From Vibrio bathopelagicus (GTDB lineage Bacteria; Pseudomonadota; Gammaproteobacteria; Enterobacterales; Vibrionaceae): DNA of 64,000 bases. Of this stretch, positions 21,636-22,540 are shown one piece after another; the stretch's first letter is position 1, and every line of letters begins with the position of its first letter. The DNA is taken from NCBI RefSeq assembly GCF_014879975.1, contig NZ_CP062500.1, forward strand, positions 2,170,001 through 2,234,000. The letters run 5' to 3'. The position numbers and the translations under genes were made by a program. The notes below the pieces were generated by a model that saw only the letters and a list, made by a program, of their open reading frames with translations, ran no database searches and was not told the origin of the DNA.

Positions 21636-21856
21636 TTGCTTCCTGCCCCTACTTCGCTGATCCTATCAGCATTGGGTTATCTGAGATTTTTAATAATTTT
21701 CTTTGAATTTCGTCACTTTACTACTATTAAGATCATATAAAAAGATGATCAAATCAGAATCTGAATGCAAGAATGGAGAAATAGTCACTTTCGTCTTAAT
21801 TCAGTCGCGATATACTGAATAACATTTTGTTAAGACATCTCCATGAGCACATAACA

Positions 21857-22540
21857 ATGAAAAAAAACAAAACAGTCACAACTGAAGATATTCTTCTTAA
21901 GCTATGCCAATCAGTATCAAGCGTACTCACTTCAGCGACGGCTTCTCAGGTGTCCTATTCAGCTATGGTGCAAAAGATTAACAAGACAAGTCTGAAGCCA
22001 GACTTTGGTTGCTTCGTTTTATTTGACGGCGGCTTTTCTGGTCTTGTTGTTATCAATTTTACGTCTAAAGCGGCGCTAGAGATCTATACCAATTACATGC
22101 GTAACATGGGCATGCCAGAAGATGAGCTCGCAGTGCTTCACACGTCTGACGAAGTGGGCGATGTTTTGGGCGAGTTAATGAACCAGTTGGTTGGTGATTT
22201 CACGAATAAAATTCGCAAGGAACTGCAAACTAACATCACGCAGAACCAACCGAAAATGCTGGCACTGAACAAGCAAGTGAACCTTTCAGTTGATACTAAC
22301 CTCGATCGTCCACAAGCTCGTCGTGTGACTTTCTCAACTGCAAACAACAACATCTTCTATCTTGAACTTGCAATGGATAAAACGGAATTCATCCAATTGG
22401 AAGAATTTGAAATCGCTGAAGACGAATGTCCAGATAGCATTCTTGAAGCGACTCAGAAAAAAATGCAAGAAGCGAACAAACCAGCAAAAAGCTCAGGTAA
22501 CGATGCAGCAGCAGATCTCCTCGATGAACTTGGGATCTAG
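21857..22540 (+). CDS. DUF3334 protein with CheC/CheX-type phosphatase signature
   Basis: A 227-residue soluble protein. Residues about 45-175 show the CheC/CheX/FliY signature exactly: Asp102-X3-Glu106-X2-Asn109-X22-Pro132. Glu and Asn are the residues that dephosphorylate CheY-P in that family. After a Lys/Glu/Asn-rich linker (about 185-215) the protein ends ADLLDELGI, closely like the CheY-binding C-terminal peptide of CheZ (DDLLDSLGF). I recall the family as DUF3334, limited to Vibrio and relatives, without known function. Monocistronic: 221 bases from divergent ydiJ, own terminator after it. ATG 21857 was chosen because an upstream TTG start would add ten unconserved-looking residues; no strong Shine-Dalgarno is seen. 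Confidence 0.85.
   Translation: MKKNKTVTTEDILLKLCQSVSSVLTSATASQVSYSAMVQKINKTSLKPDFGCFVLFDGGFSGLVVINFTSKAALEIYTNYMRNMGMPEDELAVLHTSDEVGDVLGELMNQLVGDFTNKIRKELQTNITQNQPKMLALNKQVNLSVDTNLDRPQARRVTFSTANNNIFYLELAMDKTEFIQLEEFEIAEDECPDSILEATQKKMQEANKPAKSSGNDAAADLLDELGI

Follow-up and report, generated by a model that had tools for sequence, protein, structure and literature searches.

Here, we provide comparative genomic evidence that the DUF3334 protein of Vibrio bathopelagicus is likely a phosphatase of response regulators that is related to CheX and bears, on a flexible linker, a CheZ-like peptide for docking CheY. Its receiver is probably the flagellar CheY, and in a few bacteria that lack CheZ, DUF3334 may have assumed its role. 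This explanation rests on features observed in the sequence, on their conservation, and on patterns of co-occurrence and gene loss, from which we infer catalysis, binding to CheY and which receiver is served. The gene is located in the window, i.e., the stretch of 64,000 nucleotides of the V. bathopelagicus genome that was analyzed here, with the following features (positions are those of the window).

21857..22540 (stop codon included), + strand: DUF3334 protein of 227 aa, ORF with ATG start
22007..22243, + strand: match to Pfam CheX (PF13690), residues 51-129, 34.4 bits at a cut-off of 27
22160..22252, + strand: CheC/CheX/FliY-type signature D102-x3-E106-x2-N109-x22-P132, from the sequence
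22430..22510, + strand: variable linker, residues ~192-218, with high column entropy in relatives
22511..22537, + strand: putative CheZ-like C-terminal docking peptide ADLLDELGI, residues 219-227, from the sequence pattern

A divergent CheX-type core

A second in-frame start codon, TTG at 21827, lies upstream of the ATG. In the Pfam scan, the window protein scored 390.8 bits against the DUF3334 profile. The PF13690 match was found at E<=0.01 in all 63 members of our alignment, a chosen subset of 93 non-redundant DUF3334 proteins, and the cut-off of this profile was exceeded in 23/23 DUF3334 genomes scanned. The window protein remained below the cut-off of the Pfam CheC profile (14.7 vs 22 bits), reached 17.4 bits against a cut-off of 280 with the NCBIfam model for Thermotogales CheX, and was not matched by the CheZ profile PF04344 at E<=10 in the Pfam scan. 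As judged by profile and active site, DUF3334 belongs to the CheX family, in which it is divergent, and it possesses a CheZ-like peptide but no membership in CheZ. The first-pass annotation had described the protein as an apparently unrecognised phosphatase, which is not supported given the above-cut-off PF13690 match. In addition, some database records of relatives are named "Chemotaxis protein CheX" or CheY-specific phosphatase, and the DUF3334 core is therefore not unknown. These existing CheX-type names leave out the tail, and a full-text search for DUF3334 or PF11813 found no literature for either term.

D102, E106, N109 and P132 are present with the spacing of the CheC/CheX/FliY signature, as had been read from the sequence at first pass, but the D/S assumed for the first position is not conserved among relatives, in which N is common. 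E106 and N109, the conservation of which had been proposed as a check, are invariant in 63/63 aligned members. Among the matches listed, E-x2-N-x22-P occurs in 120/120 proteins of a Vibrio-like set (of 4724 found) and likewise in 120/120 obtained with a query from family f174 (of 398 found). With [DSNT] at the first position the signature is present in 153 of 154 locus-derived proteins (L127 is the exception). Of these 153 proteins, 91 have D and 62 have N at residue 102; Vibrio-like members carry D there, and the others mostly N (107/120 among the matches listed for the f174 query). When 376 reading frames of at least 150 codons from around DUF3334 genes in other genomes were searched, [DSN]xxxExxNx22P matched 30 DUF3334 frames and one unrelated frame, and with [DS] at the first position just six frames matched, five of which were DUF3334. 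These results support a CheC/CheX/FliY-type active site that occurs far outside Vibrio, too. Conventional CheX of Vibrio and relatives differs in that 21 instead of 22 residues precede the proline (117/120 among the matches listed).

An AlphaFold2 model calculated from 68 sequences has an alpha-beta layout (mean pLDDT 79.9, pTM 0.71), in which the long helix 98-123 bears both E106 and N109. Alignment by hhalign to conventional CheX of Vibrio and relatives was weak (probability 3.9%, E 0.011), despite which its register places E106 and N109 opposite the catalytic Glu and Asn of CheX. CheX was absent from the six matches at E<=10 in a PDB sequence search with the window protein, and a PDB search with the family profile gave three matches at E<=10, with an unrelated protein at the top (E 0.2) and a CheC/FliN fusion protein second (E 0.59).

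The V. bathopelagicus genome also encodes a conventional CheX of 153 aa beside pgi and zur (L086). From the V. cholerae gene context, we take VC0377 to be such a conventional 153-aa CheX beside pgi and zur, and not DUF3334. VC0377 and DUF3334 share membership in the CheX family, and VC0377 is placed in a motility setting, as vc0377 carries a suppressor mutation in a motW context (PMC8789113).

A CheZ-like C-terminal peptide

The protein ends in ADLLDELGI, as had been pointed out in the first-pass annotation, and the comparison with CheZ made there is supported by a similar ending that extends far beyond Vibrio. CheZ of V. bathopelagicus itself has the C-terminus VDDLLSSLGF, and most CheZ examined end in DDLL(S/A)SLGF, as compared to (D)DLL(D/S)xLG(I/L) in DUF3334; DUF3334 mostly terminates in I or L where CheZ has F. 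A variable linker in front of the terminal peptide is common to both proteins. Relative to CheX, linker and C-terminal peptide are additional elements of DUF3334, and none of 120 conventional CheX relatives among the matches listed (of 1551 found) has the tail. The AlphaFold2 model predicts helices at residues 192-206 of the linker (block pLDDT 53-72) and, with low confidence, at residues 217-224 of the tail (block pLDDT 53-64).

The strict terminal pattern was found in 126 and the loose pattern in 138 of the 154 proteins. Most members keep the tail also after removal of redundancy (<88% identity, n=93), with the loose pattern in 77 and no tail in 16 proteins, which answers the earlier proposal to check its conservation. 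In the 77 tailed proteins, the last eight positions (D L L D E L G I/L) have entropies of 0-1.7 bits vs 2.3-3.6 bits at the sixteen positions upstream, a contrast that is partly built in because a protein was included only if its last seven residues fitted a pattern, although the set allowed at each position is wider than the residues mostly found. The length of the linker is variable. Codons of the tail vary synonymously, e.g., all six Leu codons are used at position -7, so that selection acts at the protein level.

The strict tail was present in 117/120 proteins among the matches listed in the Vibrio-like set and in just 13/120 among those listed for the f174 query. Fifteen of the 16 tail-less proteins belong to family f174 and one (L134) to family f177, and all retain the E/N pair. 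The idea that DUF3334 and CheZ lost their tails together was considered and rejected, because CheZ keeps its own tail in 16/16 genomes with a tail-less DUF3334; the DUF3334 tail is thus dispensable where CheZ is present. This dispensability agrees with a helper role of DUF3334 but also cautions against regarding the tail as essential for family members. Five tail-less proteins (L123, L126, L128, L129, L132) have a shorter terminal motif, e.g., PEEIMAQAGIV. Such ends are similar to the PD-x-IL motif that long members have in a proximal position, and they bear a faint resemblance to the N-terminal peptide of FliM.

Whole genomes were searched with a degenerate DNA pattern for D[LF][LFIM]xx[LF]G[LFIM] followed by a stop codon, and with the reversed pattern as control. 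The V. bathopelagicus genome contains three matches, namely CheZ, DUF3334 and one that does not end an ORF of 60 codons, and a single match to the control pattern. Twelve further DUF3334 genomes from other genera have 32 matches (12 DUF3334, 10 CheZ and 10 others) and five control matches. Eight of the 10 CheZ matches were assigned by coordinates, including that of G515, and two by eye. Nine of the 10 other matches (all except G287:C42) were examined; none ends an ORF of at least 120 codons, and the longest ORF that any of them ends has 118 codons. One genome (G321) has no CheZ for the pattern to match, and the CheZ of G232 escapes the pattern because it ends in DALLSSLGF.

Co-occurrence with CheZ and genomes that lack CheZ

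DUF3334 was detected in 4/274 genomes sampled across the class and in 151/394 genomes (26/114 genera) sampled across the order; CheZ is encoded by 272 of the same 394 genomes. CheZ is also present in 147 of the 151 DUF3334 genomes, while 125 genomes have CheZ without DUF3334, a co-occurrence with a Fisher p of ~7e-26 in which related genomes are not phylogenetically independent. Within the genus of V. bathopelagicus, DUF3334 is encoded by 27/32 genomes. Four of the five DUF3334-less genomes are also devoid of CheZ, FliM and any CheX match, and the fifth (G425) has CheZ, FliM and CheX. Another genome of this genus (G558) shows two partial DUF3334 matches that possibly represent a split gene, and G426 harbors a tandem pair of DUF3334 genes (L155, L200), both with tail-like ends.

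Of the four DUF3334 genomes without CheZ, three belong to family f174, with G321 and G644 in one genus and G571 in another, and the fourth, G566, belongs to family f181. All four are drafts of 90-99% completeness, so that a single absent gene could reflect an assembly gap; here, cheZ is missing from within a sequenced cluster. In these clusters (loci L256 in G571, L257 in G321, L258 in G644 and L259 in G566), genes were named by eye, and cheY and the start of cheA were additionally located by tblastn. The gene order is fliA-cheY-cheA-cheB in G321 and G571, and cheY-cheA-cheB with a different gene ahead of cheY in G644. The gap between cheY and cheA measures 103 bp in G321, 72 bp in G644 and 87 bp in G571 and contains no CheZ remnant. 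In G566, ~720 bp lie between the two genes, with no ORF of 110 codons and no similarity to CheZ. Relatives G375 and G359 have the order cheY-cheZ-cheA, with cheZ at that very place.

In each of the four cheZ-less genomes, the CheX profile matches DUF3334 and nothing else at E 0.01, and DUF3334 ends in DDLLASLGL in G321 and G571, DDLLAALGL in G644 and LLLDELGI in G566. FliM was found in three of the four; it was not found in G321, though flhA- and flhF-like genes are present there. A marginal CheC match in G321 (22.3 vs 22 bits) was discarded as a candidate, as it is a receiver-containing response regulator. It is tempting to propose that DUF3334 is a CheY-P phosphatase resembling a chimaera, the CheX-type core of which acquired a CheZ-type docking tail by convergence, and that it replaced CheZ outright at least twice, i.e., in two genera of family f174 and separately in one genome of family f181. 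We hold this wider proposal only tentatively and give it slightly under an even chance.

Proposed function and alternative explanations

CheZ and CheC/CheX are unrelated proteins that perform the same chemistry. Both CheX and CheZ insert an amide (Asn99 and Gln147, respectively) to orient a water molecule, and an acidic side chain of each pairs with the receiver lysine (PMC3035606). DUF3334 has an Asn in a CheX-type site where CheZ uses Gln147 (PMC3035606). One face of CheY is common to CheZ and FliM, and the FliM N-terminus binds there (PMC3774744). The function proposed for DUF3334 follows by analogy with CheX and CheZ (PMC3035606, PMC3774744). Briefly, the terminal helix would dock on flagellar CheY at its alpha4-beta5-alpha5 face, like the tail of CheZ, and thereby raise the local concentration. 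The core helix would then insert N109 into the active site of CheY-P, where N109 would orient the attacking water and E106 would pair with the active-site lysine, leading to hydrolysis of the phosphoryl group. DUF3334 would work beside CheZ in most of its carriers and is the sole recognisable CheZ/CheX-type enzyme in a few genomes.

The same chemistry could serve a different receiver, such as a CheY paralogue, the receiver domain of CheV or that of a hybrid kinase. This possibility was already raised in the first-pass annotation, and it fits the fact that most carriers have a CheZ already. It is also in agreement with several gene neighborhoods (most neighboring genes were named by eye): in Enterovibrio, Salinivibrio and Grimontia (L073, L074, L076, L084), the gene directly upstream of DUF3334 encodes a large protein with a receiver, and Pfam identifies the one in L076 as a hybrid histidine kinase that contains both a receiver and an Hpt domain; a receiver protein is encoded nearby in Photobacterium (L068-L070, L080); and, by eye, an NtrC-like gene precedes DUF3334 in L205, L207 and L208 of family f174. 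These neighborhoods, however, vary between lineages. DUF3334 of Vibrio has dld-like and DUF2786-like ORFs nearby, an MCP gene is divergently adjacent in L189, L190, L215, L193 and L217 (two families), and cheY-cheZ lie ~2.5 kb upstream in L211. Chemotaxis genes were recognised in 6/29 neighborhoods surveyed, which comprise 29 of 31 loci (L199 and L210 were left out because a longer frame overlaps DUF3334). Gene neighborhood was rejected as a pointer to the receiver, since no single partner follows from lineage-dependent contexts. The tail that DUF3334 has in common with CheZ, the co-occurrence with CheZ and FliM, and the retention of cheY and DUF3334 where cheZ is lost rather point to flagellar CheY, and we regard a different receiver as unlikely.

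Alternatively, DUF3334 might bind CheY without a catalytic role, so that the tail holds, places or competes for CheY in the way FliM does with its N-terminus on the same CheY face (PMC3774744), and hydrolysis would be incidental. Most carriers could leave hydrolysis to CheZ, but invariance of the E and N residues even in tail-less members fits catalysis better than mere binding, which renders this alternative improbable. Even harder to sustain is the view that only the CheX core matters and that the tail is coincidental or meant for another partner. In its favor, the tail is absent from one clade and the motif is short; of the 35 matches found in whole genomes, 11 belong to neither CheZ nor DUF3334, vs six matches to the reversed control. 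Yet none of the 10 examined matches of this other kind ends an ORF of at least 120 codons, and among the examined matches in the 13 genomes the motif terminates such ORFs only in DUF3334 (13) and CheZ (11). A coincidental tail thus seems very improbable to us.

If a phosphatase with a CheX-type core and a CheZ-type peptide is the correct reading of DUF3334, the joining of these two parts would make the CheY-docking tail a portable module. Vibrio and many related genera would possess a further enzyme for signal termination, and DUF3334 would point to a way in which some flagellated bacteria can do without CheZ.

As a separate observation, response regulators of similar appearance are encoded in L088 (second contig of V. 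bathopelagicus), L070 (6088-7068) and L260 (646-1671), each with a receiver and a C-terminal part and beside a PAS or PAS-GGDEF gene. The C-terminal part reached just 14 bits with the CheX profile in L088, matched CheC marginally in G321 and had no match in L070. Regulators of this kind are located near DUF3334 in Photobacterium.
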